This document shows positions 2,012 to 18,505 of a stretch of 64,000 nt of DNA, piece after piece; the first letter of the stretch is position 1; each line of letters starts with the position of its first letter. The translations under genes and the position numbers were made by a program. The DNA comes from Acidimicrobiia bacterium. GTDB lineage: Bacteria; Actinomycetota; Acidimicrobiia; Acidimicrobiales; Bin134. The stretch is taken from assembly GCA_022826705.1 (NCBI GenBank), contig JAJDUJ010000011.1:62001-126000 (forward strand). The letters run 5' to 3'. The notes below the pieces were generated by a model. The model had not been told where the DNA came from. It did no database searches and saw only the letters and a list, made by a program, of their open reading frames with translations.

Positions 2012-2020
2012 TCGGCCGCC

Positions 2021-4033
2021 ATGGTCAACGAGCCTGAGGGGCGCCCGGGCAATCCCCGCCTCTTGGCCGCGGTCTCCTGGCAGGGGGCTGCCTTGGCCTC
2101 GCCTCTGCCGATTCTGCTGTTCCGACGAGCAGAGATCGCTGAGCGGCTCGACCGGCTGGGGGCGGTAACCGGAGAGGCTGCCCTGCTGGGCGCAGTGGCG
2201 GTGGTGGCCGCGCTGATAGTTCCCCGGTTGCGGGACAAGCTCCCCGCCGGAATGCTGCTGATGCTCGGCGGGATGGTGGCCGCGGTGGGGCTGGGGCTGA
2301 TGGCCTGGACCATCGAGCTGACCCTGTTCACTGTCGGCGGCGTGCTGCTGGCGGTGGGCGCGGCCCCTGGTCTGGTGACCCATCGGGTTCTTTTGACCAG
2401 CGATGTTCGACCCGCCGATCGGTTCCGCACCATGTCGTGGTATTGGGGGGCAGTGGCTGTGGGCGTGTCATGGCCGCTGCTGGTTCGCACTTTCAGCTCG
2501 ATTGGCTACGAAACGATGCTGTGGATCAGCGCGGCGCTGTCGCTGGTGAGCGCGCTGTTGGTGGGCCGTCACTCCTTGGCCCACGACGAGGACCAAGAAG
2601 TCGAGGTGACCGTTGCCCGCGTGGATGTGCCCTGGGCTCGGCGGTCCTACGGAGCGGCCTTCGCCGTGGGTGCGGTAGTGATCGGCGGCGCCGACGCCGC
2701 CCAATCTCTCCTGCTAGGGGAATGGCAGCGTAGCGCCGCGCAGAATGCCGCGGTGCTGGCCGTCGGGTCGGGGGCGGCCACACTCATCAGCCTGTTCGGC
2801 CCGTGGTATCACCGGCTGCACCGACTCGGGGGCAGCCGCCGATCAGATGCCATCGGCACCCAATTGCTGATCGCCGGCGCGCTGATATTCCTGGGCGGCC
2901 TCTCGTTCACTTACATCGGCCTGGTGGTGTGCTGGTTGTTCGCCGGCGGGGCCATCGCCATGGCCGCCGCCGGGCTGGATGCCGCGGTGTTCCCGGCTCT
3001 GGCTCCCGCGGTTCGACGAGCGGTGTCCGCCCGCCAGGTGTTCTGGGTTGGAGCGGGCGGGTTGGCTGGCGCGCTGGTCAATGCCCAGGTGATAGGGGCA
3101 TGGTCGGATCAGTGGAAGATCGGATGGCTGGGCTTGCCCCTGCTGGTTGCGGGGTGGGCCATTCGCCGGTTTGCGGCCCCGGCACGCGACTCCGAGACCG
3201 CGGTGGTGAGAGCACAGGCCACCACCGTGCCCCGACGAGTTTATGACGCGGGCTCTGATTCGCCGCTGCTATCGATCGAGCAGGTGTCGGTGGCCTATGG
3301 ATCGGTACAGGTGCTCTTCGAGGTAGACCTCCGAGTAGAGGAGGGCGCGGTGGTCGCCCTGTTGGGCACCAACGGCGCCGGGAAGACAACGCTGTTGCGG
3401 GCCATCTCCGGCCTCGAGCCCACCATCGGCGGGCGCATCGTGTACGCCGGATTGGATATCACCAAGACCCGCCCTACCTGGCGGGTCGGCATGGGATTAC
3501 ATCAGATCGTGGGAGGAGAGGCCGTGGTCGGCCCCCTCACCGTGGCCGACAACCTCAGCCTCTTCGGCCACGGAGTCGGCCGAACTCAGCGCGACGAGGG
3601 AATTGCCGAGGCCTACGGCCTCTTTCCCCGCTTGGCCGAGCGGTCGAGCCAGCGGGCGGCCACCCTGTCGGGCGGCGAGAAGCAGATGCTCTCGTTGGCC
3701 AAGGCCATCATCGCTCCACCCCGCCTGCTGCTGATCGACGAGTTCTCGCTGGGGTTGGCCCCGACGGTGATCGCCGACCTGCTGCCGGTGGTCCGGCGCA
3801 TCGCCGACCAGGGTGCGGCGGTGCTGCTGGTGGAGCAGTCGGTGAACATCGCATTGTCGGTTGCCGACCACGCCTATGTGATGGAGAAGGGCGAGATCGG
3901 CTATTCGGACCCCGCCGAGGAGCTCCGATCCAGACCCGACCTGTTGCAGGCCGCCTATCTCGAGGGCTTGGCCCAAGCCCTCCGCCACGCTCCCGCCCCC
4001 CAGAGCAATGGCGGCGGGATCGGAGCGCAGTGA
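2021..4033 (+). CDS. Fusion: MFS-like permease domain + LivF-type ABC ATPase
   Basis: A 670-residue protein in two parts. Residues 1 to about 390 are a polytopic membrane region with about 10-12 hydrophobic segments, resembling a major facilitator permease, with a charged loop near residues 190-205. Residues about 415-650 form a complete ABC ATPase of the LivF class: Walker A GTNGAGKTT (from about 449), signature LSGGEKQ (about 549), Walker B LLLIDEF (about 570) and a following VEQ switch. The ATPase serves the LivHMG chain encoded next, with which it overlaps by one base. The attached permease domain is unusual for LivF. It may anchor the ATPase to the membrane or take part in transport; this is inference. 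Confidence 0.8.
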   Translation: MVNEPEGRPGNPRLLAAVSWQGAALASPLPILLFRRAEIAERLDRLGAVTGEAALLGAVAVVAALIVPRLRDKLPAGMLLMLGGMVAAVGLGLMAWTIELTLFTVGGVLLAVGAAPGLVTHRVLLTSDVRPADRFRTMSWYWGAVAVGVSWPLLVRTFSSIGYETMLWISAALSLVSALLVGRHSLAHDEDQEVEVTVARVDVPWARRSYGAAFAVGAVVIGGADAAQSLLLGEWQRSAAQNAAVLAVGSGAATLISLFGPWYHRLHRLGGSRRSDAIGTQLLIAGALIFLGGLSFTYIGLVVCWLFAGGAIAMAAAGLDAAVFPALAPAVRRAVSARQVFWVGAGGLAGALVNAQVIGAWSDQWKIGWLGLPLLVAGWAIRRFAAPARDSETAVVRAQATTVPRRVYDAGSDSPLLSIEQVSVAYGSVQVLFEVDLRVEEGAVVALLGTNGAGKTTLLRAISGLEPTIGGRIVYAGLDITKTRPTWRVGMGLHQIVGGEAVVGPLTVADNLSLFGHGVGRTQRDEGIAEAYGLFPRLAERSSQRAATLSGGEKQMLSLAKAIIAPPRLLLIDEFSLGLAPTVIADLLPVVRRIADQGAAVLLVEQSVNIALSVADHAYVMEKGEIGYSDPAEELRSRPDLLQAAYLEGLAQALRHAPAPQSNGGGIGAQ

Positions 4034-6801
4034 TGGGCTCGTTCGACGTCTCCGGCCCGCTGCTGCTGCTGGGAACCATCTTCGGCTTGGGCTACGCCTT
4101 GCTGGGCATCGGACTGGTTTTGGCCTTTCGATCCAGCGGCTTCATCAACTTCGCCCATGGCTCCATCGGATTGGTGGCCGCCTCGATGATGTCGGTGGTG
4201 GTCAAGGACTACGGGGTGCCCTACTGGTTGGGCTTCGTCGGCGCCCTGATCGTGGCGGCGCTGCTCGCGGCCGGAATCGAGTCGTTCGTGGTCCGAAAGC
4301 TGGCCGCCGCACCCAAGGTGCTGGCCATGGTCGCCACCCTGGGAGCGGCCGAGGCGCTGCTGCTGCTGTCGCTGTCGTTCTCCAAGGGGGGCCTGGGCGG
4401 GGGCAACTTCCCCCAGCCGCCGGGATTCCCCCAATTCGACCTCACCGTGTTCGTGTCGCCGTCGGCCACCGCGCTCTTGTGCCTCTCGCCGGTGGTGGTC
4501 GGCGGGCTCTACCTGTTCCTCCAGCGGAGCCGATTCGGCCTCGCCATCCGGGGGGCGGCGGCCAACCCCGACTCGGCCACATTGGCCGGGGTGGATCCCC
4601 GGCACATGGCCATGCTGTCGTGGGCGCTGGCCGGGGGCATCGCCGCCTTCGCGGCCATGCTCATCATCCCCAACCAGTCGACGGTCACCGCCGACGCCCT
4701 CGGCCCCGACTTCATCATCCGCGGCCTCGCGGTGGCGGCCCTGGCCCGATTCGCCAACCTTCCCATCGCGCTCCTCGCCGGGCTGGGAATCGGACTGGTC
4801 GAGCAGATCCTGGCCTCCAATCCCGAGGCCACCGGCTGGTTCGAGGTGGCCCTGTTCCTGCTCATCCTGGTGGGAGTGGCCATGCAAGTGCGCGTGGGCC
4901 GAGAGCTTTCGGAGCGCTGGTCGAGCCTGTCGCCCAGCCGCCGCCTCCCCGACTCGTACCGCGACATCTGGTTGATCCGGAACCTGGGCTGGGTTGTCGG
5001 CGGAGTCGCCGCCGTGGCCGCCGCGCTGGTACCGCTGGGGATCAGCAACCGCTCGGCGTTCGTGCTGTCGACCATCGTTGCCTTCGCCACCATCGGCATC
5101 TCGGTGAGCTTCCTGACCGGCCTGGCCGGCCAACTGTCGCTGGGCCAGGTGGCCTTCGCCGCCATAGGCGCGGTGGCCGGTGTTCGGGTGGCCGTAGACA
5201 CCGGCAGCCTGCTGCTGGGCCTGCTGTGCGGCGGAGCGGTAGGTGCGGCGGCGTCGGCCGCAGTGGGGTTACCCGCCCTGCGGGTGCGGGGCCTGCTGCT
5301 GGCCATCGCCACGCTGGCCTTTGCCCTGGCCACCTTCAGCTGGCTGCTCCGCCAAGACTGGGCGTTCGGCGCCGGTTTGTCGTCGCGCCCCGCAAGCGTG
5401 CTCGGAATCGAACTCACCACCTCACGGGCCTTCTACTTTGTGGCGCTGGCGGTGTTCGCCGGCGTGCTGGCCATCGCCCATGTGCTGCGCCGATCCTCGT
5501 TCGGGCGCTCACTGGTGGCGGTGCGCGACAACGAGGCCGCGGCCCGGGTTTTGCAGATCGCCCCCCGGCGCATGCTGCTCCAGGCCTATGCCTTCGCCGG
5601 GTTCGTCGCCGGAGTGGGCGGCGTGATCCTGGCCATGAGCAACACCTTCGTCACCCGCAGCATCTTCACACCCAGCGACAGCATCAACGTGGTCTCGCTG
5701 GCTGTCATCGGAGGCCTCTCGGAATTGACCGGTCCCCTGTTCGGTGCGGCCTATCTGATCGGCATCCGGGAGTTCTTCGATCTGGAGCTCTCCGCCCTGG
5801 CCGGGCTGAATGCGGCCTGGCTGATCTTGATCCTGGAACAGCCTCGGGGCTTCCACGGGCTGCTGGAAACCACTCGGCGCAATTTGATCGATCAGATCGC
5901 CCGATTGCGAGGTGTCGACCCGGTCGCAGCCCGTGACGAGGAGGCCGAGCACGAGGCTGGCGCGGCTTCGGTGGTGCCCGCAGAATCAGCCCCGCCTACA
6001 AGATCTGGCGGGACGGTGCTGGAAGTAAGGGGCCTCACCCGCAGCTTCGGCGACTTGGTGGCGGTTGACGACGTGTCGTTCACCGTCACCGAGGGCGAGA
6101 CGCTTGGGCTAATCGGACCCAACGGTGCTGGCAAGACCACAGTGTTCGAGCTGGTCAGCGGATATCTGCGCCCCCACGCGGGCACGGTGCTGTTCGAGGG
6201 CGCCGATGTCACCGGACTGACCCCGGAGGCCCGTAGCCGCCGGGGTCTGGTGCGCTCCTTTCAGAACGCCCCGCTGTTTCCCACCATGACCCCCCGAGAC
6301 ATCGTCTTCCTGGCCAACCAGCGGGCGCACCAGCACGGCTTCGTGGTCGGCGGCTCGCGCACCGAGCGGGAGCTCGAAGACCACACTTCTGACACGCTGG
6401 CCATGTTCGGCCTGAACCAATTGGCCGATCAGCCGGTCAGCCTGCTGTCCACCGGCACCCGGCGCCTGGTGGAGTTGGCCGCCAACGTGGCCCTGCGCCC
6501 CCGCCTGCTGCTCATGGACGAGCCGTCAGCCGGCATCGCCCAGGCGGAGACCGAGGCCCTGGGCGCGGTGATCGCCCAAATCCGGGAGGCCTACGGCATC
6601 ACGCTGGTGGTGATCGAGCACGACATGCCGCTGCTGACCTCGGTGTGCGACCGCCTCATCGCCCTGGAGGTGGGGGCGGTGATCGCCGAAGGCACCCCTG
6701 CCGAGGTGCAGGCTGATCCCGCGGTGGTGCAGAGCTATCTGGGGGGCGACCCTGCCGCCATTGCCAGGAGCGGATCGGTCACGCCCCCTCCACCTCAGTA
6801 A
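4033..6801 (+). CDS. Triple fusion LivH-LivM-LivG: ABC permeases + ATPase
   Basis: A 922-residue chain that carries three subunits normally encoded separately. Residues 1 to about 295 are a LivH-like permease (FRSSGFINFAHGS motif near the start), about 310-610 a LivM-like permease (TGLAGQLSLGQVAF motif), and about 655-915 a LivG-like ATPase with Walker A GPNGAGKTT (about 695) and Walker B LLLMDEPS. The ABC signature reads LSTGTRR rather than LSGGQ, a tolerated variation in LivG proteins. A GTG one codon upstream (4030) is an alternative start; the ATG at 4033 sits directly on the previous stop. With the binding protein and MFS-LivF it completes an importer. Its last 23 bases overlap the convergent SDR gene. 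Confidence 0.88.
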   Translation: MGSFDVSGPLLLLGTIFGLGYALLGIGLVLAFRSSGFINFAHGSIGLVAASMMSVVVKDYGVPYWLGFVGALIVAALLAAGIESFVVRKLAAAPKVLAMVATLGAAEALLLLSLSFSKGGLGGGNFPQPPGFPQFDLTVFVSPSATALLCLSPVVVGGLYLFLQRSRFGLAIRGAAANPDSATLAGVDPRHMAMLSWALAGGIAAFAAMLIIPNQSTVTADALGPDFIIRGLAVAALARFANLPIALLAGLGIGLVEQILASNPEATGWFEVALFLLILVGVAMQVRVGRELSERWSSLSPSRRLPDSYRDIWLIRNLGWVVGGVAAVAAALVPLGISNRSAFVLSTIVAFATIGISVSFLTGLAGQLSLGQVAFAAIGAVAGVRVAVDTGSLLLGLLCGGAVGAAASAAVGLPALRVRGLLLAIATLAFALATFSWLLRQDWAFGAGLSSRPASVLGIELTTSRAFYFVALAVFAGVLAIAHVLRRSSFGRSLVAVRDNEAAARVLQIAPRRMLLQAYAFAGFVAGVGGVILAMSNTFVTRSIFTPSDSINVVSLAVIGGLSELTGPLFGAAYLIGIREFFDLELSALAGLNAAWLILILEQPRGFHGLLETTRRNLIDQIARLRGVDPVAARDEEAEHEAGAASVVPAESAPPTRSGGTVLEVRGLTRSFGDLVAVDDVSFTVTEGETLGLIGPNGAGKTTVFELVSGYLRPHAGTVLFEGADVTGLTPEARSRRGLVRSFQNAPLFPTMTPRDIVFLANQRAHQHGFVVGGSRTERELEDHTSDTLAMFGLNQLADQPVSLLSTGTRRLVELAANVALRPRLLLMDEPSAGIAQAETEALGAVIAQIREAYGITLVVIEHDMPLLTSVCDRLIALEVGAVIAEGTPAEVQADPAVVQSYLGGDPAAIARSGSVTPPPPQ

Positions 6802-7585
6802 ACAGATCGCGCCTGCGGAACGAAGCGGTCATGAACCGGGCGAAGGCCTTGCGCCGGGTCAGCCACACCACCCGAGCGCCCGACTTGTCGGCGGCCAGGA
6901 TGTGATCGGCCAGCCAGGGGGTGACGGTGTGGACGTGGTCGCCCAGGATGTTGAAGATCTTCTTCGACTTCTCCCACTGCTCCGAGGTGAGGTCGTAGTC
7001 CCCGGTGAGCAGGTCGGTCACGACAATGCCCGGCGACACGGTGCATATCTGCACGGGGGTGTCGGCAGTGTCCTTGCGCAGGGCCTTTTGCAGATAGCGG
7101 ACCGCCCGCTTGGTGGCCCCGTAGGCCGCCATGCCGGGTTGGGTGGCGCCATCGGAACCGAACCCCTCGGTGTTCCACACCTGGCCGTGGCCTTGGCCCA
7201 CCATGTTGGCGACGGCCGTCTTGCTGGCCAGCAGCGCCCCGGTGAGGTTGGTATTGACCAAAGCAGCCAGGTCATCGTCGTGCTGCTCCCACAACGGCTG
7301 GCGGGTGATGCTGACGCCCGCGTTGTTGATCCACACGTCAACCCCGCCAAAGGCATCGGCGGCGCGGTCCCACAGCCCTTGGAGCTGTTGGGGATCGGTG
7401 ATGTCGCAGGCCGCGCCGCACACCTTGGACTCGCCGTAGTACTGGCCCAATTCAGCCACCACTTCCTCCACCTGGCCTGCCGACCGTCCGCTCACCGCCA
7501 CTTCGCATCGGCGCTTCAAGAACTCTCGGGCCAACCCGTTGCCGATCCCCCTCGTGCTGCCGGTGATGACGATGCGCTTGGTCAC
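6779..7585 (-). CDS. SDR oxidoreductase of the NOL/NYC1 (chlorophyll b reductase-like) type
   Basis: A 268-residue short-chain dehydrogenase with TGSTRGIG cofactor motif, WINNAG, and active-site YGATK. Beyond generic SDR features it follows the plant chlorophyll(ide) b reductase NOL/NYC1 closely in the parts that distinguish that group: the aligned segments read GFGSDG where NOL has GAGSxG, then SPGIVVTDLL, and a C-terminal LT-x8-F-x-TASFRRRDLF segment matching NOL's tail. NOL/NYC1 reduce the C7 formyl group of chlorophyll b. This similarity is from memory, not computed. The gene lies 19 bases downstream of a chlorophyllase-like hydrolase on the same strand, in a cluster with PaO-like and RCCR-like genes. 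Substrate remains inference. Confidence 0.75.
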   Translation of the reverse strand: MTKRIVITGSTRGIGNGLAREFLKRRCEVAVSGRSAGQVEEVVAELGQYYGESKVCGAACDITDPQQLQGLWDRAADAFGGVDVWINNAGVSITRQPLWEQHDDDLAALVNTNLTGALLASKTAVANMVGQGHGQVWNTEGFGSDGATQPGMAAYGATKRAVRYLQKALRKDTADTPVQICTVSPGIVVTDLLTGDYDLTSEQWEKSKKIFNILGDHVHTVTPWLADHILAADKSGARVVWLTRRKAFARFMTASFRRRDLFTEVEGA

Positions 7586-7604
7586 TTTGGGCTCCTCCTA
7601 TTGC

Positions 7605-8564
7605 TCAACGTCGTTCCCAGTGACTGACTGACGACTGGTCGACCAATTGCTCCATATTGGCCCGACTCGGCCGGCCCAGGCTGGCGGCGGTGAACGCGGC
7701 GATGAGGTCGCCGAGCAGTTCCCGGATGGCTGGGTCGGCGGTCGCGGAGTCGGACTCCAGGAAGGAGCGGCCGCTGGTGGTGTCCACCGGGTCGCAGATG
7801 GCGAAGTGTCCTGCGCCGGCCAACTCGACCAGCCAGGAATCTCCCTGCTGCCGATGAATAGCCTCGGCAAAGGTCCGCCGGACGGGGTCGTGGGCGCCGT
7901 CGTCGGTGCGGTAGCGGTCGCGGCTGGCCGCGATGACCCCGTCGTCGGCACCGCCCAGCAGCAGCATCGGAACTTTGGCCGGAATGGGCACGACGGCGGC
8001 CTCGCCATGCCCCAGAGCCGTGGCCACCATGGTGTGGGCGGCGTAGGCGAACACCGCCTGCAAGCCCAGCACCCAAGACGGATCGCTGTTGTGCAGCGCT
8101 GCCGTGCCACCCGCCGAATGGCCGCCCACCACCACTCGATCCAAGTCCAGGTGCCCGGCCACCGGACTGTGCTCATCGGCGCCCAATTCAGCCAAGCAGG
8201 CCAGCAACGGCCCGAGTGCGGTGGAGGAGGGCCGGGTGCCGATGGTGTCGGGGGCCAAAGCGGCCAGGTCGAGACCAGGGGTGATGCCCCGCCCCGCCGG
8301 GCCCAGCGACCCGATGGCGGCAAAGGTCACCACGCCCAACCCGTCGGCCACCAGCCGATGGGCCAGCCACCGATAGGTGTCGGGCGCCACATTGATGCCC
8401 GGCAGCAAGACCACCACCGGCCATGGGGCATCAGAGTCGTCGGCTGGCACTTGTCCGGTCAGGCGGGCCTCGTCGAGGCGGCTGTCGTCACCGGGGTAGA
8501 ACAGCGTTCCCAGCGCGGCATCCCCGCTGGCATCAAAGGAGAAGTGCAGCCCTCGGACGATCAT
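7605..8564 (-). CDS. Alpha/beta hydrolase, chlorophyllase/PAF-acetylhydrolase-like
   Basis: A 319-residue serine hydrolase. The oxyanion region is VVVLLPGIN, the nucleophile elbow is GGHSAGG (plants' chlorophyllase has GHSRGG), the probable acid is in LGGADDG, and the catalytic His lies in GAGHFAICD, which aligns with the YGHLDMLDDD segment of chlorophyllase. Chlorophyllase cleaves the phytol ester of chlorophyll; related proteins hydrolyse PAF or polyesters, so the substrate is not proven. It is the first gene of a two-gene minus-strand operon with the NOL-like SDR. An IclR-type operator candidate sits 22-41 bases upstream of its start, shared with the divergent gene at 8645. Confidence 0.65.
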   Translation of the reverse strand: MIVRGLHFSFDASGDAALGTLFYPGDDSRLDEARLTGQVPADDSDAPWPVVVLLPGINVAPDTYRWLAHRLVADGLGVVTFAAIGSLGPAGRGITPGLDLAALAPDTIGTRPSSTALGPLLACLAELGADEHSPVAGHLDLDRVVVGGHSAGGTAALHNSDPSWVLGLQAVFAYAAHTMVATALGHGEAAVVPIPAKVPMLLLGGADDGVIAASRDRYRTDDGAHDPVRRTFAEAIHRQQGDSWLVELAGAGHFAICDPVDTTSGRSFLESDSATADPAIRELLGDLIAAFTAASLGRPSRANMEQLVDQSSVSHWERR

Positions 8565-8586
8565 GCGGCGCTCTCGGTCGCAGCGC

Positions 8587-8605
8587 TGTTTCGCTCAGAG
8601 GAACA
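8587..8605. promoter_or_regulatory. Candidate IclR operator in divergent promoter (site 1)
   Basis: The 81-base gap between the hydrolase (8564, minus) and the next gene (8645, plus) contains TGTTTC-GCTCAGA-GGAACA, a near-perfect inverted repeat with 6-base arms. The same element occurs at 15160 and 18482, each time in a divergent promoter. The CGCTCAGAGGAA part is identical to the copy at 18482 in front of the IclR gene. Role as operator is inferred from recurrence, position and symmetry. Confidence 0.6.
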
Positions 8606-8644
8606 CGGTTTCATCAGCTTCCAGCACACTCTACGATTCCCAAG

Positions 8645-9100
8645 GTGAGCGACACCAGAAACTACGGCCCGGCCTCGCCTCGGCCGTACCAGTGCTTTAT
8701 GGGCCACTGGGAGGGGCTGTGCAAGAGCTTCACCCCCCACGGCGATTTCCTCGAATCCAGCGCGGTACACATGGACGTGTACTGGCTGGACGACAACACC
8801 TGGCACCTCCACGAGCATTTCGAGAACCTCTACGGCGTGGGCGAGACCATCTTCGACACCCCGATCCAAGTGGACGGCAAGCGGTGCTTTGCCGACAGCG
8901 AGCAGCTCAGCCTCGAAGGGGCCGAGCTCACCCCGTACAACTACGTCTTCACCATCGACAGCCGGGTGAGCAACAACATCGTCTACAACAACCACTACTT
9001 CCTAGACCCCGACACCCGTCGCATCATCACCCACAAGGTGCGCGACGGCGCCACCAACCTGTTCCAGATCCAGGACTTCACCCGGGTGCAGCGGCCATGA
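8645..9100 (+). CDS. Beta-rich calycin-like protein (DUF3598-like?), first gene of plus operon
   Basis: A 151-residue protein starting at GTG 8645; an internal ATG at 8699 is a possible alternative start. It opens with a GHWEG motif and continues as alternating short beta strands rich in Trp/Tyr/His, the pattern of lipocalin/calycin barrels. It resembles cyanobacterial DUF3598-type proteins in the 'GxWxGxxxxxxPxG' opening, but I cannot confirm that. No enzyme motif is visible. It overlaps the next gene by 4 bases (ATGA) and starts a four-gene operon. Given its cluster with tetrapyrrole-type enzymes, binding of a pigment or bilin-like ligand is a plausible but unproven role. Confidence 0.6.
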   Translation: MSDTRNYGPASPRPYQCFMGHWEGLCKSFTPHGDFLESSAVHMDVYWLDDNTWHLHEHFENLYGVGETIFDTPIQVDGKRCFADSEQLSLEGAELTPYNYVFTIDSRVSNNIVYNNHYFLDPDTRRIITHKVRDGATNLFQIQDFTRVQRP

Positions 9101-9915
9101 TCGTCCAGAGCGCCCCCGGAGGCGAGGCCAGCGCCCCCCATTTCGTGATCGCCATGCACCAGCACACCGCCTTCGCCGGTTGCCTGGCCGCCAACTTCGG
9201 CAATGACGAGTTCGACGGGCTCGAACCGGCCGAGCCGATGCAGTTCATCGTCGACCACCACGATCAGGGCTGGGCCGACCTCGACGCCCAGGCCCCCCAG
9301 AACCCCGACACCGGCCTTCCCTACAACCTGACGGCCACGCCGCTGCCCCAGATTGTGACCACGTCAGCGGGATCGCCGGCGTTCAACGAGGCCCATCACC
9401 CGTTCAGCGGCATCATCTCGTCGATGCACACCTACGGCCTGTACCGGGGACGGTACGGGTTGAGCGACAAGATCTTCTTGGACGTGATCCCCGACGAGCT
9501 GCGCCCTGAGGTCAACGCCATGCTGGGCAACGAGGAGAGCCGCCAGCGCCGTCTGAAAGAGCAGCTGGCCACCGACGATCCCGACCACGCCAGCGACGAG
9601 TACCTGTTCCACGCCTACAAGCAGCTCCAGTTCTTCGACACCATCTCCCTGTACTTTCACCTGGCTCCTGAGGGAGAGCGGGGCCCCTCTGAGTTCCTCA
9701 ACGTGCCCCGGGCGGTGGGCGACGACGTGACCATCTCGGTGGTCGAGCGTCCTGGCGGGGAATACAGGTTGGATCCCTACCCGTTTGGCGAAGACGGACT
9801 CGAGCTGGCCACCGAGGGTCGGTATCTCGCCCCTCAGCCTCCCGGTACCGACCTCGGCGCGGTGCTGGCCGACACGCCGGTGTCGACCCAGACGGTGCGC
9901 CTGGTCGGAATGTGA
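9097..9915 (+). CDS. DUF3891 family protein
   Basis: A 272-residue protein that matches the layout of DUF3891: an AMHQHTAFAG His-rich start, VDHHDQGW, an NPDTGLPYN segment, then SSMHTYGLYRGRYG and a later LQFFDTISLYF segment. The His/Asp residues are arranged like a divergent HD-type metal-binding helical domain. No biochemical role is established for DUF3891. It is translationally coupled to both neighbours (ATGA at 9097, GTGA at 9912), so it acts with the two calycin-like proteins around it. Metal-dependent chemistry on the cluster's substrate is possible but only inference. Confidence 0.7.
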   Translation: MIVQSAPGGEASAPHFVIAMHQHTAFAGCLAANFGNDEFDGLEPAEPMQFIVDHHDQGWADLDAQAPQNPDTGLPYNLTATPLPQIVTTSAGSPAFNEAHHPFSGIISSMHTYGLYRGRYGLSDKIFLDVIPDELRPEVNAMLGNEESRQRRLKEQLATDDPDHASDEYLFHAYKQLQFFDTISLYFHLAPEGERGPSEFLNVPRAVGDDVTISVVERPGGEYRLDPYPFGEDGLELATEGRYLAPQPPGTDLGAVLADTPVSTQTVRLVGM

Positions 9916-10814
9916 GCAAGGGGTCGTTCTCCCAAGGAGTCGGCGAGTGGATCGGCGCGGCTGAGGTCTACGACGCCGACGGCCGCTTTGCCGGAATGGG
10001 GCGCGACACCCGATCAGTGAAGGCTGACGACCAGGCCGGTCGGGTGACGGTGGAGGTCGAGTTCGACGGGCCGTTCTCCCTGTCTGGCGTCTACACCATC
10101 GCCGACCACGGCTCGCACCGCACTTATGAGGGACCCCTCAACATCGGCTATGCCGAGGCGATGGGCGATGGCCTGGTGGCCGCCCACAACTACTGGCCCG
10201 ACCTGGGGCTGTCGCAGCGTTTCTTCCTGATGGTGCTGCCCGACGGCACCCACCAGCTCTCGCTGGCCCTGCTCAGCCGAGGCGACCAGCTCCAATGGAC
10301 GGTGGTGGGGGAATATCAGCGTCAGATCGACCCGTCCGACCCCGCACCTCGTCCGGTGGCGCCGATGGACCCGCGGGCCTTGCGCGACGACCCCACCGCC
10401 GGCCGTGGCGACCTGCTGTTGCTGCGTCCTGGCCGATGGTCGGGCCAACTGCACCGCCTCGACGCCGACTACACGCCCACCGGACCGGCCGATTACACCG
10501 AGACAGTCGTTGACCAGGGCCACTCGTGGGAAGTGGGACTCTCGGGCGCGGACTACTCCCCCGGCCTGTCGTTCACCCTGCTGTCTGACGGCTGGACGGC
10601 GTGGACCCCGGAGGGCGATCTTATGGGCAGCGGCAGCCTCAGCGGCGGCCGGGGCTTCAGCGGACAGCTCCACCTCCACAGCCAAGGGCTCCGGGTGTGG
10701 CGACGCGAGGTGGTATCGCGCGATGGCTCCACCAAGGCGGTTCTCCACATCTGGTATCGGGGCGAGCAGCGCCTCGGAGCGGCCTACGGGGCCTTGGCCT
10801 TCGAACCGGCATGA
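9912..10814 (+). CDS. Two-domain beta-rich protein of the cluster's 'GEW' family
   Basis: A 300-residue, Trp/Gly-rich protein that appears to hold two related beta-barrel-like domains, beginning GVGEWIG (about residue 10) and PGRWSG (about residue 172). Shared marks with its neighbours at 10811 and 11484 are a GxWxG opening, an R-x-Y-x-GP segment and an LPDG turn. There is no signal peptide, so it is cytoplasmic. It starts at GTG in a GTGA overlap and ends in an ATGA overlap with the next gene. Family not recognised; lipocalin-like ligand binding is a guess from its composition and its partners. Confidence 0.6.
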   Translation: MSKGSFSQGVGEWIGAAEVYDADGRFAGMGRDTRSVKADDQAGRVTVEVEFDGPFSLSGVYTIADHGSHRTYEGPLNIGYAEAMGDGLVAAHNYWPDLGLSQRFFLMVLPDGTHQLSLALLSRGDQLQWTVVGEYQRQIDPSDPAPRPVAPMDPRALRDDPTAGRGDLLLLRPGRWSGQLHRLDADYTPTGPADYTETVVDQGHSWEVGLSGADYSPGLSFTLLSDGWTAWTPEGDLMGSGSLSGGRGFSGQLHLHSQGLRVWRREVVSRDGSTKAVLHIWYRGEQRLGAAYGALAFEPA

Positions 10815-11470
10815 GCGAGAAGGACCGCTTCAGCGGCGACTGGTTGATCAACGAGTACGTCTACGACCCCGACGGCACCTTCCGGGGCGAAGTGGCCCAG
10901 CGCCGGATCGTCGAGCCCACCGGAGAGAACCAGCTGCGGGTGACCCAGCAATGCCATCCCTCCCCCGAACTGGCCGACCACCCCATGGCCGCCTTCGCCG
11001 GCGAGTGGGTATTCGATCTAGAGGTCGCCGGTGACCAGCGCCGCTATCTCGGCCCCGACGTAGTGGGCGTCGGCACCGTGTGGCAGCCCGGCGCCCTCAC
11101 CGGCCAAGGACTCTGGCCCCGATTCGGCTACGAGTTCGAGTCCTACAGCGTCCTGGTCGCCCCCGACCGCCAACTCACCGGCGGCTTCTTCTCCCTAGCC
11201 GGCCGCTCAGTAGCCGACATCGTCGGCGTAGCCGTCCCCGAAGCCTCCGGCGTACAGCCCCGCCTCGACTTGTCAGCCCCCGCCCCCAAGCCCAACGACC
11301 ACTGGCCCCTGAAACGAACCGTCGGCCCCATGCTCGTAGCCGCCGACCAATCCTCCCCCACACACCACCGCCGACTCTGGACCATGCACGACTCCATCGG
11401 AGCCACCGGCATCCAAATCACCGAAGACGTGGACGATGGGGGCCGCTCGGTGTCGGTGACCGTGGGCTAG
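10811..11470 (+). CDS. Beta-rich protein of the cluster's 'GEW' family
   Basis: A 219-residue protein starting at the ATG in an ATGA overlap with the previous gene. Features: FSGDWL opening, AGEWVFD near residue 58, RRYLGPDVVG near residue 77, and FFSLAGRSVADIVG, each with counterparts in the proteins at 9912 and 11484. No enzyme motif or signal peptide is visible. It is the last gene of the plus-strand operon; a 13-base gap separates it from the convergent gene at 11484, which encodes another member of the family. Function unknown. Confidence 0.6.
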   Translation: MSEKDRFSGDWLINEYVYDPDGTFRGEVAQRRIVEPTGENQLRVTQQCHPSPELADHPMAAFAGEWVFDLEVAGDQRRYLGPDVVGVGTVWQPGALTGQGLWPRFGYEFESYSVLVAPDRQLTGGFFSLAGRSVADIVGVAVPEASGVQPRLDLSAPAPKPNDHWPLKRTVGPMLVAADQSSPTHHRRLWTMHDSIGATGIQITEDVDDGGRSVSVTVG

Positions 11471-11483
11471 GCCTTGACGGCGC

Positions 11484-12425
11484 TTATGCGTCGGAGGTGT
11501 AGGTGAGGGGGCCGAAGACTATGTCGGTCATGCGGTCGCCGTCGTAGAGCTTCCAGGCGACGGCGAGGGTGTAGTCGCGGTCGATGATGAACTCTCGGCC
11601 TTTCACTTTGAAGGGTTCGCTGACGTGGTGCTGGGAGGTGTAGAGGGCTCGGCCGTAGGCGATGGCGTTGCCCCATAGGTCGGGGCCGTCGTAGGTGTAG
11701 CGGTTGCCGTGCGAGCGGGTGCGGATGAAGGTGTGGGAGTAGTCGATCTCCCCGGAGAGCTCCAGGGTGTGGGTGGCGCGCACCAGGTCGATGGGATCGT
11801 GGCGCCAGCGCACATTCACAGTGCCCCGGCGCTGCTGGTCGGCCCCGAACACTTCGCATTCTCCGATCCATTCGCCTCCGATGCGGTCGGGCACGGTGTG
11901 GGGCCAGGCGGCCATCTCCCGCTCGGCCTCAATGTGGGCGTCGATCCACGCCTTGGTTTCGGGATTGGTGTCGTAGTCGTGGGCGTTCAGGTACACCCCG
12001 TTGAACACCGAGAAGATGGTGGGACCCTCATACAGCAGCGACGAGTACACCTGGGTCACCCCGTCGGGGAGGATCTGGTTCATGGTGTTGAGGTCGGCCC
12101 GCCAGCCCGGCGCGTAGTAGTGGGAGTCCACCAGTGAGCCATAGGGGTGGCCGGCCCCGTAGAAGTCGGGGCCCTGGTAGATGCGGTCGTTGCCCCGGTC
12201 GTCCACTCCGAACTCGAAGTCCCTGATCTCGAACCGGTTGCGCAGCGGGCCGGTGTTCATGAAGTTGCACTGCATCCAGTAGGTGACCTTGCCGTCGGCG
12301 AAAACGCTGGCCCGGCTGACCTTGTTGAACCCGGTGTGGTTGCCCTCGGCGTCGAACACCGACGGCAGGCCGTACCACTCACCGGTGATGCGCTGTTGCC
12401 ACTCGGAGGCTTGGGATTCGCTCAT
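11484..12425 (-). CDS. Two-domain beta-rich protein of the cluster's 'GEW' family
   Basis: A 313-residue protein with two clear repeats. Domain 1 (about 1-165) has ITGEWYG, RIYQGPDFYG, HYYAPGW and a VYSSLLYEG segment; domain 2 (about 180-313) has IGGEWIG, YTYDGPDLWG and FIIDRDYTLAVAW. The repeated Y-x-GPD-x2-G motif is also in the 10811 product, so the family has expanded inside this cluster. It is the last of four minus-strand genes (RCCR-like, PaO-like, RCCR-like, this), 10 bases after the preceding stop. It may bind or modify a tetrapyrrole-derived ligand; no direct evidence. Confidence 0.62.
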   Translation of the reverse strand: MSESQASEWQQRITGEWYGLPSVFDAEGNHTGFNKVSRASVFADGKVTYWMQCNFMNTGPLRNRFEIRDFEFGVDDRGNDRIYQGPDFYGAGHPYGSLVDSHYYAPGWRADLNTMNQILPDGVTQVYSSLLYEGPTIFSVFNGVYLNAHDYDTNPETKAWIDAHIEAEREMAAWPHTVPDRIGGEWIGECEVFGADQQRRGTVNVRWRHDPIDLVRATHTLELSGEIDYSHTFIRTRSHGNRYTYDGPDLWGNAIAYGRALYTSQHHVSEPFKVKGREFIIDRDYTLAVAWKLYDGDRMTDIVFGPLTYTSDA

Positions 12426-12435
12426 TTCAATCCGT

Positions 12436-13170
12436 TCATTGCAGGGTGGATGGGGAGCGGGCCGCGGTCTTCAGGCTGGCCTGGATGTCGGCGCTCGTCT
12501 CGGGGCCAAGCAACTGATCGACCCGGGCCCACACGGGGTCGACCGCCGGGTTGAAGATGGCGGCCCGGTTGCGGGCATCGCGATCGGAAAGCTGCTCGGC
12601 GGTGGCACCCCCGGTGGCCTCGTCGGGCACACCGGCTTCCACCAGTCCCAGCCAGTGGTCGCGGTAGGAGGCCACCGCGCCGAACACGGCCCGGAAGCCA
12701 TCCTCGTCGGCCCGGTGGGCCAGCATCCACGCCGACATGAGCTGCCACTGGCGGGGAGAAAGGTGGGCGGGGGTGAGCCCCTCGATCTGCATGGTCTCGT
12801 CGTGAACCTCGGTTAGGGGGCCGTAGCAGTGGTCGATGTAGGCCAGGTTGGCGCCCGGGTCCAGCCGAGGGATCAGATCCAAGTGGAAGGCGTAGTGCGG
12901 TCCGGCCAACACCGAGTCGACCGTGAAGTGGGGCACCGGGCTGGCCGCCGGGGTGAAGGCGAAGCACATGTGGCTGTCGAGCCCGAATGCCTCCACGGTC
13001 ATGCCCACGTACACCAGTTCCGCCACCCCGTCGCGGGTCAGCACCCGATGGGCCCCGACCGGCGATCCGTCCATGGCCGAGGCCAGCGGGGTATGAACGG
13101 TCTCCTCCAGATCCAGTCGGCTGGCGATGGCCTCCACTGTGCCGAGGCAGAGATCACCCGAAAGGCTCAT
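12436..13170 (-). CDS. Second RCCR/bilin-reductase-like protein
   Basis: A 244-residue protein that I read as a diverged relative of red chlorophyll catabolite reductase and ferredoxin-dependent bilin reductases. The key part is VPHF (about residue 83) followed by AFHLDLIPRLDP, matching the APNF...LILDLPxRKD core of plant RCCR, then YIDHCYGPL, and a C-terminal D-x2-NR-x14-W-x3-DQLLG stretch where RCCR has its conserved R-x-D...MFGEE end. These enzymes reduce linear tetrapyrroles without a bound cofactor, taking electrons from ferredoxin. It overlaps the PaO-like gene by 4 bases. Weaker match than the copy at 14319. Confidence 0.55.
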   Translation of the reverse strand: MSLSGDLCLGTVEAIASRLDLEETVHTPLASAMDGSPVGAHRVLTRDGVAELVYVGMTVEAFGLDSHMCFAFTPAASPVPHFTVDSVLAGPHYAFHLDLIPRLDPGANLAYIDHCYGPLTEVHDETMQIEGLTPAHLSPRQWQLMSAWMLAHRADEDGFRAVFGAVASYRDHWLGLVEAGVPDEATGGATAEQLSDRDARNRAAIFNPAVDPVWARVDQLLGPETSADIQASLKTAARSPSTLQ

Positions 13171-14306
13171 GATCGGTCCTCCCCCACGGCGGGGAACACC
13201 CAGGCGTTGGCCAGCTCGGGGTCGCCGGTGCGCCCCGGCGAGGGAATCACCGCCGCGGCCCGCATGGCCTCCTCATCCGACGGGGTTTCGAGGCCCCAGC
13301 CCTTGTCAATCTGCTCCTGACGCCAGCGGCGGTAGGCCAGTTGGATGGAGTCAGACTTGACGTGGAGCTCAGCAGACAGATCGAACGGCAACAGCTCCGG
13401 TCGCTGGCCCTCAACGGTGGGCTGGTCTTCCAGGAAGATCTTGATGGTGCGGTCGTAGGAGTTCTTGTCGGCCCAGCCCCCGGTGAAGAACGTGCGCAGC
13501 ATGCAGAACTTAGAGACGGTGACGTGCTCGTCGCGGGGCACCGCGGCGGTGAAGATGCGGATCTCGCCCATGGGCAGCCGCACGATGAGCATCGACACGT
13601 TGGGCGGGTAGAACCCGGTGGAGGTGCTCACCGGCGGGCGGTCCTTCTTGGAGATGAACCGCCACAGGCCTGACGGTCGGGGCGGTTCGAGCTCCACGGT
13701 GGCGGTGACCGATGCCAAGTGGCCGTTTACGCGGGTTTCGTCGAGGTCAAAGTCCTGGATCTCGGGGTGATCTTTGTTGCCGAACGAGCCGGAATGCACG
13801 AAGGGAGTGTGGGCGATGTCCACCGCGTTCTCCAGCACCCGGTCGTAGTTGGCCTGCCAGGTGAATTCGCCGATGATCGCCCGGTAACCCTCCGCCCTGG
13901 CCTCAGTGTGCTCTTCAAGGCCTTCCAATTCGGGCACCGGGGGCCGATTCTCGGGGGCCAGATCGCCCAAGAACACCCACACGAAGCCGTAGCGCTCGAT
14001 GCAGGGGTAGGTGTCGATCCGGGCTTTGCGGGGGATGGGCAGGTCCACCCGGTTGGCTGGTATTTCCACACAGGCCCCGTCGGCTCCGTAGCGCCAGCCG
14101 TGATAGGGGCACTGCACGCAATCGCCCACCACCGTGCCGCCGGCCAGTGAGCCACCCCGGTGCACGCACAGGTCGGACTGGGCGTTTACCGTGCCGTTCG
14201 GACTGCGCCACAGCACCAAGTCGTGGCCGTGGACCCGGGCCAGCACCGGCTGGTCGGTCACCCACTGCCCGAACTCCACGGCATACCACTGGTTCTTGAT
14301 CAACAT
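13167..14306 (-). CDS. Rieske oxygenase, pheophorbide a oxygenase (PaO)-like
   Basis: A 379-residue Rieske non-haem iron oxygenase. It begins NQWYAVEF, carries the Rieske cluster motif C-x-H-x16-C-x2-H (CVHRGG ... CPYHGW), an IPANR segment typical of the PaO/Tic55/cyanobacterial subgroup, and mononuclear iron ligands in ENAVDIAHTPFVH (D-x2-H-x4-H). Plant PaO opens the macrocycle of pheophorbide a to red chlorophyll catabolite using ferredoxin electrons. The C-terminal membrane segment and CxxC of plant PaO are not visible. It lies 12 bases after an RCCR-like gene and overlaps another, the product pair expected for PaO. Substrate not proven; related bacterial Rieske enzymes demethylate or hydroxylate other rings. 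Confidence 0.75.
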   Translation of the reverse strand: MLIKNQWYAVEFGQWVTDQPVLARVHGHDLVLWRSPNGTVNAQSDLCVHRGGSLAGGTVVGDCVQCPYHGWRYGADGACVEIPANRVDLPIPRKARIDTYPCIERYGFVWVFLGDLAPENRPPVPELEGLEEHTEARAEGYRAIIGEFTWQANYDRVLENAVDIAHTPFVHSGSFGNKDHPEIQDFDLDETRVNGHLASVTATVELEPPRPSGLWRFISKKDRPPVSTSTGFYPPNVSMLIVRLPMGEIRIFTAAVPRDEHVTVSKFCMLRTFFTGGWADKNSYDRTIKIFLEDQPTVEGQRPELLPFDLSAELHVKSDSIQLAYRRWRQEQIDKGWGLETPSDEEAMRAAAVIPSPGRTGDPELANAWVFPAVGEDRS

Positions 14307-14318
14307 GCCAGCTCCCCC

Positions 14319-15131
14319 TCAGCCGGGTCGGGGCAAAACCCGGTCGCCGCCCCACAGAGCCCGCACCAGACGGTCGGTCATCTCCTCCCCGAAGAAACGC
14401 ACCCCCATGACGTTGGCCGGGTCTCTCTCGGCGATGTTACGCCGCCGGGTCAGATCGTCGGCGGCCAGCTGCTCCCGGCGCTCCAGCGGCACGGCGTCGG
14501 TCTCGTCCACCCACGCCAGCCACTGGTCGACCCGCCGGTGAGCCAGCTCGCTCACCTGGTTGAGCCGACCCTCGTCGTAGGTCTGGCCCGGAGTGGTAAA
14601 GCAGACGGCCACTTCGCTCAGCGCTTGGCGCACGTACAAGGCCCGGGAAGTAAAAGGCGCCAGCCCCTCGTCGGCCCGCAGCTCCAAGAACTCCTCGTTG
14701 AGCGGACCATAGAACTTGTCGAGCGAATCGGTGTCGAGCATGAGATCGGAGCGGGGGTTGTAGTCGATGTAGAACCACAGGTCGGGAAGCGTTCCCCAGG
14801 CGATGCCCAGATGGGGCACATCGATGTGAGGACCGAGCCAGGCGGTGACGTGCATGTTGGTGAACCCCAGCGGCGGGTTGCCGATCCACGAGTGGATCAG
14901 CCAGTCCATCTCCGGGCCGGTGTAGCCGGCCAGCCGCCCGGCGGGGAACTCGGCTTCGCCCCGATACGACTCCAGGTCTTCGGTGCTGGGATCGCGGGTC
15001 AGCTCGAAGCGGGCCTCGATCTTGGCCATGAGCTCTTCGGTGATCGACCACAGTCGGTTGAACGTGGGTGTGGCGTTTGTCGGGCTCCGTTCGTCGAAGA
15101 TGTCTTGGACGCCCTTCAGCGTCTCGCGCAT
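14319..15131 (-). CDS. Red chlorophyll catabolite reductase (RCCR)-like protein
   Basis: A 270-residue protein that matches plant RCCR along its length: DWLIHSWIG (RCCR DFVIGSWIH), P-H ... YIDYNPRSDLML (RCCR LILDLPxRKDLVL), FYGPL, SRALYVRQALSEVAVCF (RCCR SPSLFVRSAFSPTA), a WLAWVDE helix, and the C-terminal RRRNIAE...FFGEEMTDRLVRAL, matching RCCR RRKSIED...MFGEEVSSRVVHAI. RCCR reduces red chlorophyll catabolite to the primary fluorescent catabolite with ferredoxin. Comparison is from memory of the plant sequence. It is the first gene of its operon; a perfect inverted-repeat operator candidate lies 29-47 bases upstream. The substrate-contact Glu of plant RCCR does not seem to be kept. Confidence 0.78.
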   Translation of the reverse strand: MRETLKGVQDIFDERSPTNATPTFNRLWSITEELMAKIEARFELTRDPSTEDLESYRGEAEFPAGRLAGYTGPEMDWLIHSWIGNPPLGFTNMHVTAWLGPHIDVPHLGIAWGTLPDLWFYIDYNPRSDLMLDTDSLDKFYGPLNEEFLELRADEGLAPFTSRALYVRQALSEVAVCFTTPGQTYDEGRLNQVSELAHRRVDQWLAWVDETDAVPLERREQLAADDLTRRRNIAERDPANVMGVRFFGEEMTDRLVRALWGGDRVLPRPG

Positions 15132-15248: not shown

Positions 15249-16088
15249 ATGAGCCGCACCACGCTTTATGTCCCCGGAGATCGCCCCGACCGCTTCGACA
15301 AGGCGCTGGCCTCGGGGGCTGACGCCATCATCTGCGATCTCGAGGACGCGGTGGCCGAAACGGCCAAGGCAACCGCTCGGGAAGCGGTGGGCCAATGGCT
15401 GCGGGCCAATCCCGGTGTGCCGGCCTGGGTGCGGATAAACAACCGCCCCGACATGGTGGACAAGGACGCCGAGTTGGTGCGCTCGCTGGTTTCCGACGGC
15501 GTGGGCTTTGCCGGGGTGGTCGTGCCCAAAGCCGATGCCGCGGCCTGCTCGATCGACTTCGGCGGCTGCCCGGTGACCGCGCTCATCGAATCGGCGGTGG
15601 GGGTGGCTGAGATATACGAGATAGCCGCGGTGCCCGAGGTGGTGCGCCTCGCCTTGGGCGAGGCCGACCTGGCCGCCGACATGGGCATGCAGCCATCGCC
15701 CGACGCCCTGGAGATGTGGCCCATCCGCACTCGAGTGGTGGTGGCGTCGGTGGGCAAGGGGCTCGAAGCGCCCTGCGGGCCGGTGTTCACCAACCTCGAC
15801 GATGACGCGGGGCTGGCCACCACCAGCGAGTCGCTTCGCCGCCACGGCTTCGGCGGCCGATCGGTGATCCACCCCAAGCAGGTGGCCGCGGTGAACGCTG
15901 CCTTCACCCCCTCCGATGACGAGATCGCCAGGGCGGAGGCGGTGGTGGCCGCCTTCGAGGAAGCCGCCGCCGAGGGTCGGGTGGTTGCGGTGCTCGACGG
16001 CGAGTTCATCGACGCGGCGGTGATGCGCTGGGCCCGGGCAGTACTGGCCCGAGTGCCCCCGGATCGGCTCGTCAACCCGCAGGAGTAG
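15249..16088 (+). CDS. CitE-like CoA-ester lyase (HpcH/HpaI family)
   Basis: A 279-residue TIM-barrel lyase: LYVPGDRPDRFDKA start, CDLEDAV with metal-binding acid, VRIN, PKAD, and ALIESAVGV with the second metal-binding Glu, then LGEADLAADMG. Members split beta-hydroxyacyl-CoA esters such as citramalyl-, malyl- or beta-methylmalyl-CoA into acetyl/propionyl-CoA plus a 2-oxoacid. A GAGGAG ribosome site precedes the ATG. It shares the operator region with the RCCR/PaO operon and overlaps the convergent nitrilase gene by 17 bases at the 3' ends. It is a natural final step for branched C4-C6 diacids activated by the CoA-transferases nearby. Confidence 0.85.
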   Translation: MSRTTLYVPGDRPDRFDKALASGADAIICDLEDAVAETAKATAREAVGQWLRANPGVPAWVRINNRPDMVDKDAELVRSLVSDGVGFAGVVVPKADAAACSIDFGGCPVTALIESAVGVAEIYEIAAVPEVVRLALGEADLAADMGMQPSPDALEMWPIRTRVVVASVGKGLEAPCGPVFTNLDDDAGLATTSESLRRHGFGGRSVIHPKQVAAVNAAFTPSDDEIARAEAVVAAFEEAAAEGRVVAVLDGEFIDAAVMRWARAVLARVPPDRLVNPQE

Positions 16089-17679: not shown

Positions 17680-17689
17680 TGGCCAGTCC

Positions 17690-18505
17690 TTAGTTGGTGG
17701 GGCGGGCCCCGAGCTTGGTCGAGAGCCCTCGGGTGGCCTCAACCACCGCGGCGGCCGAGCGGGCGATCTTGTCGCGGAACCGCTCCAGCGGTCCGCTGAT
17801 GCTGATCACCGCCACTGGTTGGTGGTTGTGGTCGAGGATGGGCGCGGCCACCGAGCCGGCGTCATGCTGGCGCTCTCCCAGCGACACCGCGAAGCCCTGC
17901 TGGCGGATGCGGTCCAGCTCGGCGCGCAGCTCGTCGACAGACACGATGGTGGCCTCGGTCAAAGAGTCCAGCGGGTTCTCGGCCAGGTAGAGGTCGATCT
18001 CGCCGTCGCTGAGCCAGGCCAGGAACGCCTTCGACGACGCGCCGGCATGCAGAGGAAACGACCCGCCGATGGGCACGGTCATCTTCACCTCGCGGGGAGG
18101 AGTGATCTGAGCCACGTATACCCGGCGGTTGCCGTGGCGCACCGACAGGGTGGCGGTCTCGTCGGTCTCGGCGCTGAGCCGGCGCATCTCTTCCAGCGCC
18201 AAGTCCCTCACGTCGAGTTGATCTCGGTAGGCCGCGGCCAACTCCAGCACCGCGGGCCCCAGCGCGTAGCGCCGGCTCTCGGGGTCGACGATGAGCAGGC
18301 CGCGTTCGCACAGGGAGGTGAGAATCCGGTGGACCACCGCCTTAGACACCCCCAGCTCGCGCGAAATCTCGGTGACGCCCAGCGTGCTCGACGACCGCGA
18401 GAACAGGAACAGCACATCCACGGCTCTCTCGATTGCCGCCACTCCCCGACCCGAACCAGACACCGAGTCCGAATTTTCTGCTGTTCCGCTCAGAGGAATG
18501 ACCAT
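17690..18505 (-). CDS. IclR-family transcriptional regulator
   Basis: A 271-residue regulator with an N-terminal winged helix-turn-helix (AIERAVDVLFLFSRS ... VTEISRELGVSKAVVHRILTSL) and a C-terminal IclR effector domain (VGGSFPLHAGASSKAFLA, then VSISGPLERF). IclR proteins bind palindromes and respond to small aromatic or carboxylic acids. An operator candidate lies over codons 2-8 if the ATG at 18505 is used; the in-frame GTG at 18463 would place it just upstream, which may be the real start. This location suggests autoregulation. Genes with the same element include the PaO/RCCR operon and the NOL/hydrolase operon. Confidence 0.88.
   Translation of the reverse strand: MVIPLSGTAENSDSVSGSGRGVAAIERAVDVLFLFSRSSSTLGVTEISRELGVSKAVVHRILTSLCERGLLIVDPESRRYALGPAVLELAAAYRDQLDVRDLALEEMRRLSAETDETATLSVRHGNRRVYVAQITPPREVKMTVPIGGSFPLHAGASSKAFLAWLSDGEIDLYLAENPLDSLTEATIVSVDELRAELDRIRQQGFAVSLGERQHDAGSVAAPILDHNHQPVAVISISGPLERFRDKIARSAAAVVEATRGLSTKLGARPTN
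18482..18500. promoter_or_regulatory. Candidate IclR operator near its own gene (site 3)
   Basis: TGTTCC-GCTCAGA-GGAATG has a perfect left arm and a four-of-six right arm, and shares its spacer with site 1. It sits at the 5' end of the IclR gene in the gap facing the CoA-transferase operon, as expected for an autoregulatory site. Confidence 0.55.

Follow-up and report, generated by a model that had tools for sequence, protein, structure and literature searches.

A conserved actinobacterial gene block with an RCC reductase relative and a Rieske oxygenase, possibly for the breakdown of chlorophyll-type tetrapyrroles

We describe a gene block in a 64,000-nucleotide stretch of DNA from a member of the Acidimicrobiia (G000:C1:62001-126000 in a genome of 3.45 Mb; hereafter the window). 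In this block, a gene of the RCC_reductase family lies 12 bases from a Rieske oxygenase gene, as a first-pass annotation had noted, and the two are accompanied in other genomes by a second gene with a predicted bilin-reductase fold and a double-barrel gene. With confidence just short of even, we favor the reading that the block serves catabolism: its enzymes would open chlorophyll-derived tetrapyrroles (pheophorbide or phyllobilin type), take them apart, and pass the pieces to central metabolism. What was observed directly comprises the genes with their families or predicted folds, how consistently they are linked and co-occur, and which residues are conserved. All five genes named in the annotation are open reading frames (ORFs) where it had placed them. 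Named close matches belong to Acidimicrobiales/Acidimicrobiaceae and Candidatus Poriferisocius/Poriferisodalis, and record titles indicate that the host is probably marine or sponge-associated. The central genes, referred to below by their first coordinate, are the following.

6779..7585, minus strand: short-chain dehydrogenase/reductase (SDR; adh_short, 138.5 bits)
7605..8564, minus strand: alpha/beta hydrolase, chlorophyllase/PETase-like at low score (GHSAGG, S150, D208, H253)
11484..12425, minus strand: tandem calycin-type double beta-barrel CAL4, predicted pigment carrier (fold comparison)
12436..13170, minus strand: second bilin-reductase-fold protein FDBR2, with D85 and D211 (AlphaFold2 fold, profile-profile comparison)
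13167..14306, minus strand: Rieske non-heme iron oxygenase of VanA_C type, not PaO, 379 amino acids (aa) (Pfam, residues)
14319..15131, minus strand: RCC_reductase-family (RCCR-like) protein, 270 aa (PF06405, PDB RCCR match, homologues)

When the 14319 family was scanned against a collection holding one genome per species, 211 loci emerged, and the analysis covers the best 80 of these 211, selected by similarity to 14319 alone. A gene was counted as a neighbor if it lay within 9 kb of the RCCR-like gene with a tblastn match at E<=1e-8 and more than 60 bits; the lower neighbor counts are minima because 16 of these loci span less than 20 kb. By this measure, the Rieske gene, 12436, and 11484 are each found near the RCCR-like gene at 79 of 80 loci, followed by the hydrolase and a nitrilase-type amidase (72 each), the SDR (71), and a CitE-type lyase (29). 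Among the scored genes, the order NITRIL-RCCR-HYD-RIESKE-FDBR2-CAL4-SDR on one strand is common to 48 of the 80 loci. Thus, the neighborhood proposed in the first-pass annotation is conserved in other genomes, with carriers that include Streptomyces, Actinomadura, Nocardia, Nonomuraea, Micromonospora, Actinoplanes, Nocardioides, and Catellatospora. One carrier metagenome-assembled genome (MAG) is labeled Deltaproteobacteria (L059). The sole exception to the core, L048 (Nonomuraea corallina), has an RCC_reductase-family gene with no core partners in its 10 kb flanks. The locus L031 (Actinomadura sp. J1-007) is rearranged, with all core genes present and the Rieske and double-barrel genes inverted further downstream.

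The families of 14319, 12436, and 11484 all map to the same 3 genomes among 296 of the phylum, and PF06405 and the 12436 family occur in the same 9 of 60 relatives. The genes thus form a co-inherited accessory module. PF06405 finds 14319 as its sole match in the window's genome and has no match in any of 14 control genomes. In one of 24 cluster genomes, G068, which contains L041, it finds nothing although tblastn detects an RCCR-like gene at 53% identity, and Pfam-based counts are minima for this reason. Distance-matrix correlations between six proteins range from 0.67 to 0.93 and, having no null model, show shared history only. Synteny and co-occurrence together rule out chance clustering, as the annotation had supposed from the combination of genes. 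A plasmid-borne cassette was likewise rejected, as no RCCR match was found in 72,556 plasmid records. Three de novo ORF families (15, 18, and 12, drawn from 45 chosen loci of 89) were set aside after inspection by eye as apparently antisense or spurious.

Protein 14319 scores 54.8 bits against PF06405 (RCC_reductase; cut-off 24.9) over residues 31-259, and RCCR similarity does indeed run along most of the protein, including the C-terminal FGEE block singled out earlier. The gene start at 15131 is common to homologues, and the ORF list begins further upstream. In the PDB, nothing but three plant RCCR sequences (best E 9.6e-9) matches it by sequence at E<=1, and two NCBIfam phycoerythrobilin reductase models reach the protein at 16.6 and 14 bits, far under their cut-offs. 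There are 475 homologues at E<=0.001, and one among the matches listed is already named RCC reductase by its source. In an alignment with GtPEBB, Ala111 of the 14319 family occupies the position of Asp-99 (chain residue 101; offset 2), and Asp237 that of Asp-219. The alanine is present in 34 of 34 rows of alignment A1 (the window protein plus 33 of 120 listed matches) and at 80 of 80 loci, and Asp237 is equally invariant across the 80. We take the central acid column (Asp-99) to correspond to Glu154 of At RCCR and the second (Asp-219) to its Asp291. Protein 14319 therefore looks like an RCCR relative with a changed center, which is a prediction from sequence. Vascular-plant HY2 likewise lost Asp-99 and has Asn there, according to the GtPEBB paper. 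In two Nocardioides loci, a second RCC_reductase-family gene is located approximately 18-25 kb from the main one (L090:4574-5401 and L092:10568-11395). An ABC transporter of the branched-chain-amino-acid type lies close to this second gene, which in L090 also adjoins an ABM-domain protein.

The 12436 and Rieske genes have 4 bases in common. The product of 12436 could not be identified by sequence alone: the protein has no Pfam or NCBIfam match, and the profile of its family (alignment A2, the window protein plus 30 of 120 listed matches) finds no ferredoxin-dependent bilin reductase in the PDB at E<=10. Fold comparison succeeded. The AlphaFold2 model has the RCCR/bilin-reductase fold, with an alpha/beta/alpha sandwich across the whole chain, and is about equally near PebB/HY2/PebA and RCCR at 9-17% identity to ferredoxin-dependent bilin reductases. 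Profile-to-profile comparison also joins the 12436 and 14319 families (E 5e-14, 224 columns). The annotation had called this a second RCCR-like gene, a description that holds by fold and profile-profile comparison and fails in Pfam, NCBIfam, and PDB sequence searches; of the two proteins so described, 14319 scores as an RCCR and 12436 is predicted to fold as an RCCR/bilin reductase. Asp85 and Asp211 of 12436 sit on the GtPEBB Asp-99 and Asp-219 columns at 79 of 79 loci. According to the GtPEBB paper, both aspartates of that enzyme act on bound bilin. Given these residues, 12436 looks like a catalytically conventional bilin reductase, although this is a prediction.

For other families, alignments A3 (33 members), A4, and A5 (24 each) were made with members picked from the 80 loci. 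The Rieske cluster residues C47, H49, C66, and H69 and the iron motif D163, H166, H171 are invariant in 24 members, all of which have the VanA_C C-terminal domain. The nearest solved relatives are SxtDIOX/SxtT and the methylxanthine demethylases. PaO carries a C-terminal CxxC. This motif is absent from 24 of 24 Rieske members, 16 of which have a CxxC that begins at residue 62-67, within the Rieske part of the protein. The earlier label of PaO-like is not borne out, as 13167 matches only Rieske and VanA_C profiles, and its identity as PaO is rejected on the absence of both the PaO domain PF08417 and the C-terminal CxxC. Bacterial PaO-like proteins generally lack that motif, according to an earlier survey (PMC2716323).

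The hydrolase family has an invariant GHSAGG motif, S150, D208, and H253. At E<=0.1, Chlorophyllase PF07224 matches 16 of 24 family members (best 8.4e-8) and PETase matches 20 of 24. The window hydrolase itself has no PF07224 match at E<=1 and reaches 26.5 bits against PETase, just under the cut-off of 28. The chlorophyllase-like character once assigned to it is weak. SDR 6779, labeled NOL/NYC1-like in the annotation, shows generic SDR membership only (Pfam, NCBIfam).

Protein 11484 has the tandem calycin barrel fold of DUF3598/BFA1-type double barrels, from which it differs by low identity (8-13%); a DUF3598 or BFA1 match carries no information on function, and structure comparisons were used to exclude no fold. 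Solved DUF3598-type examples come from Nostoc and BFA1 from Arabidopsis. Between the double-barrel and hydrolase genes lie four companion genes, and any resemblance of CAL1 to calycins is by eye only, with no Pfam match for 8588-9100.

8660..9100, plus strand: small conserved protein CAL1, acidimicrobial version, start uncertain (near RCCR in 16 of 80 loci)
9091..9915, plus strand: DUF3891 protein (PF13030, 112.7 bits; near RCCR in 16 of 80 loci)
9912..10814, plus strand: CAL2, paralogue of the 11484 double barrel (27% identity, 305 columns, E 1e-13)
10811..11470, plus strand: small protein CAL3, weakly similar to CAL4 (E 0.007; near RCCR in 17 of 80 loci)

Numerous genes with catabolic family assignments flank this core, and these added lower-pathway genes suggest catabolism.

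461..6801, plus strand: branched-chain-amino-acid-type ABC transporter (binding protein, ATPases, permeases; binding protein 30.1 bits, cut-off 31.7)
15249..16088, plus strand: HpcH/HpaI (CitE-type) C-C lyase (106.2 bits; 29 of 80 loci)
16072..17742, minus strand: nitrilase-superfamily (CN_hydrolase) amidase, 556 aa (150.9 bits; 72 of 80 loci)
17690..18505, minus strand: IclR-type regulator (149.7 bits)
18548..19804, plus strand: family III CoA-transferase 1 (409.5 bits)
19801..20628, plus strand: cyclase-family (PF04199) hydrolase (99 bits)
20376..22034, plus strand: MmgE/PrpD-family hydratase/dehydratase, start probably further in (profile matches)
22027..23487, plus strand: hydantoinase/allantoinase-type amidohydrolase, candidate imidase (PDB D-hydantoinase, E 7.5e-39; under NCBIfam equivalog cut-offs)
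23514..24431, minus strand: HMGL-like C-C lyase (PF00682, 142.1 bits)
24403..25680, plus strand: family III CoA-transferase 2 (422.4 bits)
25694..26326, plus strand: isochorismatase-family amidase, candidate maleamate-type amidase (128.1 bits; NCBIfam under cut-offs)

In other actinobacteria, the nitrilase-type amidase belongs to the core operon, and genes like that for the IclR-type regulator also occur in the flanks of other clusters. A plus-strand ORF at 23226-24458 (G23226), used as a tblastn query, is antisense to the HMGL-like gene, and its counts were not used. Among the 21 loci L010-L030, CitE is found at 20, CoA-transferase, cyclase, and PrpD at 15 each, hydantoinase at 11, PEP-mutase type at 4, and maleate-isomerase type at none. 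The 59 loci L031-L089, mostly from other actinomycete families (with L053, a Microthrixaceae MAG, L078, an Actinomycetota MAG, and L059 included), have maleate-isomerase type (56), aldehyde dehydrogenase (51), FAD monooxygenase (47), HpaB/acyl-CoA-dehydrogenase type (38), Dabb (35), flavin reductase (28), and PEP-mutase/ICL type (18), with CitE at 10, CoA-transferase at 5, PrpD and isochorismatase at 2 each, cyclase at 1, and hydantoinase at 0. The upper core is therefore common and the lower part exists in two main versions. These are bridged by PrpD, two CoA-transferase, HMGL, and isochorismatase genes upstream of the Nocardia terrae cluster and by a hydantoinase-type gene near a Nocardioides cluster. 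One representative maleate-isomerase-type protein finds 2xed as the best of 11 PDB matches (E 1.3e-13), followed by arylmalonate decarboxylases.

A plausible order of reactions can be proposed from the family and position of each gene. Hydrolase 7605 would take off an ester and SDR 6779 would modify a side group. Rieske oxygenase 13167 might then oxidize or cut the macrocycle or linear pigment, filling the role of PaO without being PaO. The linear colored intermediate would be reduced with ferredoxin electrons by 14319 and 12436, which probably act in succession like PebA and PebB, while the double barrel 11484 and its paralogue 9912 might hold hydrophobic, light-sensitive intermediates. In most other actinobacterial versions, the flavin monooxygenases and aldehyde dehydrogenases of the block could convert the bilane to monopyrroles and oxidize formyl groups. 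Nitrogen might be freed from maleimide-type fragments by the hydantoinase-type 22027, nitrilase-type 16072, and isochorismatase-type 25694 proteins. Substituted maleates would finally yield acyl-CoA and keto acids, perhaps by PrpD, the CoA-transferases, and the CitE/HMGL lyases in the window and by maleate-isomerase-type enzymes in other versions. Imide opening, deamidation, and maleate-type diacid processing would be what the monopyrrole fragments of a tetrapyrrole need. Mono- and dipyrrolic chlorophyll products have been reported from leaves and herbivores (PMC7318184).

Chlorophyll as the ultimate source is favored by the RCCR family, the Rieske partner, the chlorophyllase-like tendency of the hydrolase family, and the lack of a heme oxygenase match in the window's genome. 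Several findings weigh against this source. PF08417 matches none of the 24 Rieske members at E<=1 and none of 25 cluster genomes, versus 2 of 14 control genomes (one of them above the cut-off). Staygreen PF12638 (Mg-dechelatase) is found in 0 of 24 and 0 of 1 cluster genomes, and no control genome matched either. Protein 14319 has the PF06405 score and the second acid of an RCC reductase and has Ala in place of the central acid. Heme oxygenase is present in 13 of 25 cluster genomes, and no feature singles out chlorophyll over another linear tetrapyrrole. The bacterial chlorophyll-breakdown cluster first suggested fits as an analogue of the PaO/RCCR pair, and not as the plant pathway itself (no PaO domain, Ala111).

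The main rival, which we consider unlikely, is that the substrate is a smaller N-heterocycle of the pyridine, pyrrole, or indole type, with the RCCR/FDBR fold recruited for a different reduction or for cofactor-free chemistry. The imide, amide, and maleate tools would equally serve other N-heterocycles, and coproporphyrinogen oxidase has a related fold with different chemistry. However, two separate bilin-reductase-fold proteins travel together with a double barrel, and 12436 retains both aspartates that act on bound bilin in GtPEBB. Less probable still is a cluster that degrades a linear tetrapyrrole of heme or phycobilin type (biliverdin, bilirubin, urobilin, or phycobilins), with the Rieske enzyme oxidizing an already open bilin. 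This would suit the canonical aspartate pair of 12436 and the equal nearness of its model to PebB/HY2/PebA and RCCR, as well as the 13 genomes with heme oxygenase and the ABM-domain protein adjoining the second RCCR-like gene of Nocardioides. A precomputed PF05996 label also appears besides PF06405 on some 14319 homologues, but PF05996 does not match the window's 14319 at E<=1. Heme oxygenase was rejected as entry enzyme for the window's genome, which like eight cluster MAGs (G073, G077-G083) has no match, and the heme oxygenase and RCCR-like genes are on different contigs in the 12 genomes where both could be placed. Taking the chlorophyll and heme types together, we put the chance that the substrate is some tetrapyrrole at about two thirds.

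It is very improbable that the block serves protection rather than nutrition, detoxifying phototoxic porphyrins or chlorins acquired from hosts or prey without any gain in growth. Few lower-pathway genes are present in the 10 kb flanks of some loci, and plant PaO/RCCR mutants build up phototoxic catabolites (PMC8219035). Nevertheless, the aldehyde dehydrogenases, amidases, maleate-isomerase-type proteins, CoA-transferases, and C-C lyases of many loci argue for assimilation. Returning to chlorophyll breakdown, its fullest form can be offered only tentatively, as a possibility that falls clearly below even: a complete aerobic pathway that mineralizes chlorophyll by means of a Rieske enzyme and reductase pair, double-barrel carriers, and conversion of maleimide-type fragments to acyl-CoA and keto acids. 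On that same reading, the pathway would be widespread in Actinomycetota from soil, sponge, and water, and a bacterial reductase of this kind might be the ancestor of plant RCCR.

In outline, the cluster resembles the PaO/RCCR pair of the plant PAO/phyllobilin pathway, in that a Rieske oxygenase gene adjoins an RCC_reductase-family gene and, among solved proteins, plant RCCR is nearest to 14319 by sequence. It falls outside that pathway on the PaO domain and the 14319 central acid, which is Ala, and it has no Staygreen match, as was also true of the control genomes; it adds the second bilin-reductase-fold protein, the double barrel, and lower catabolic genes. PcyA, PebA, PebB, PebS, and HY2 differ in their low identity to 12436 and lack of a sequence-profile match in the PDB, and the setting here is catabolic rather than one of antenna or phytochrome, and the classified cluster genes include no heme oxygenase. 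Aerobic nicotinate catabolism (nic) shares a maleate isomerase, a maleamate-type amidase, an FAD monooxygenase, and an alpha/beta hydrolase. It is not known to have a place for bilin-reductase-fold proteins, this Rieske oxygenase, or a double-barrel protein. The pre-PcyA/BBAG clusters similarly place bilin-reductase relatives of non-photosynthetic bacteria in conserved clusters, but according to PMC10151467 the pre-1/pre-3 clusters typically include genes for heme oxygenase, V4R, Fe-S, and globin proteins, and the genes classified here include no such member. No word starting with "actino" appears in the main text of that paper. Gene-level similarity is already in databases; a bacterial RCCR/Rieske cluster as a catabolic route has no description that we found in the open literature among the matches listed.

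Chlorophyll is made and destroyed yearly on a vast scale. The plant pathway stops at linear phyllobilins, according to PMC8219035, and the same literature matches yielded no bacterial gene set that recovers the carbon and nitrogen of the pigment. Because Streptomyces, Actinoplanes, Micromonospora, and Nocardioides carriers are culturable, the question is open to knockout and growth assays. The earlier survey describes RCCR from land plants plus a few cyanobacteria (PMC2716323); to this is now added a broad actinobacterial family with a partner. Moreover, 12436 adds a family that has no Pfam match and yet has both catalytic aspartates of bilin reductases.

Other features were observed in these clusters and in the window. 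A protein of approximately 290 aa with no Pfam match (F17; L034:15465-16337 and like genes) lies between the SDR and maleate-isomerase-type genes at 42 of the 59 loci L031-L089. The Microtetraspora glauca cluster contains a dipeptide-type ABC transporter (SBP_bac_5, BPD_transp_1; L096:10038-12541), which suggests a different uptake system, and a luciferase-like monooxygenase (L096:15032-16363). In the window, a second catabolic island at 31882-34010 has a PaaX-type regulator and a Ring_hydroxyl_A-type Rieske oxygenase. At 39557-43881, a weak HATPase_c_3 protein (under the cut-off), a C5 cytosine methylase, and an unclassified protein stand in a row, possibly as a restriction- or defense-type island.

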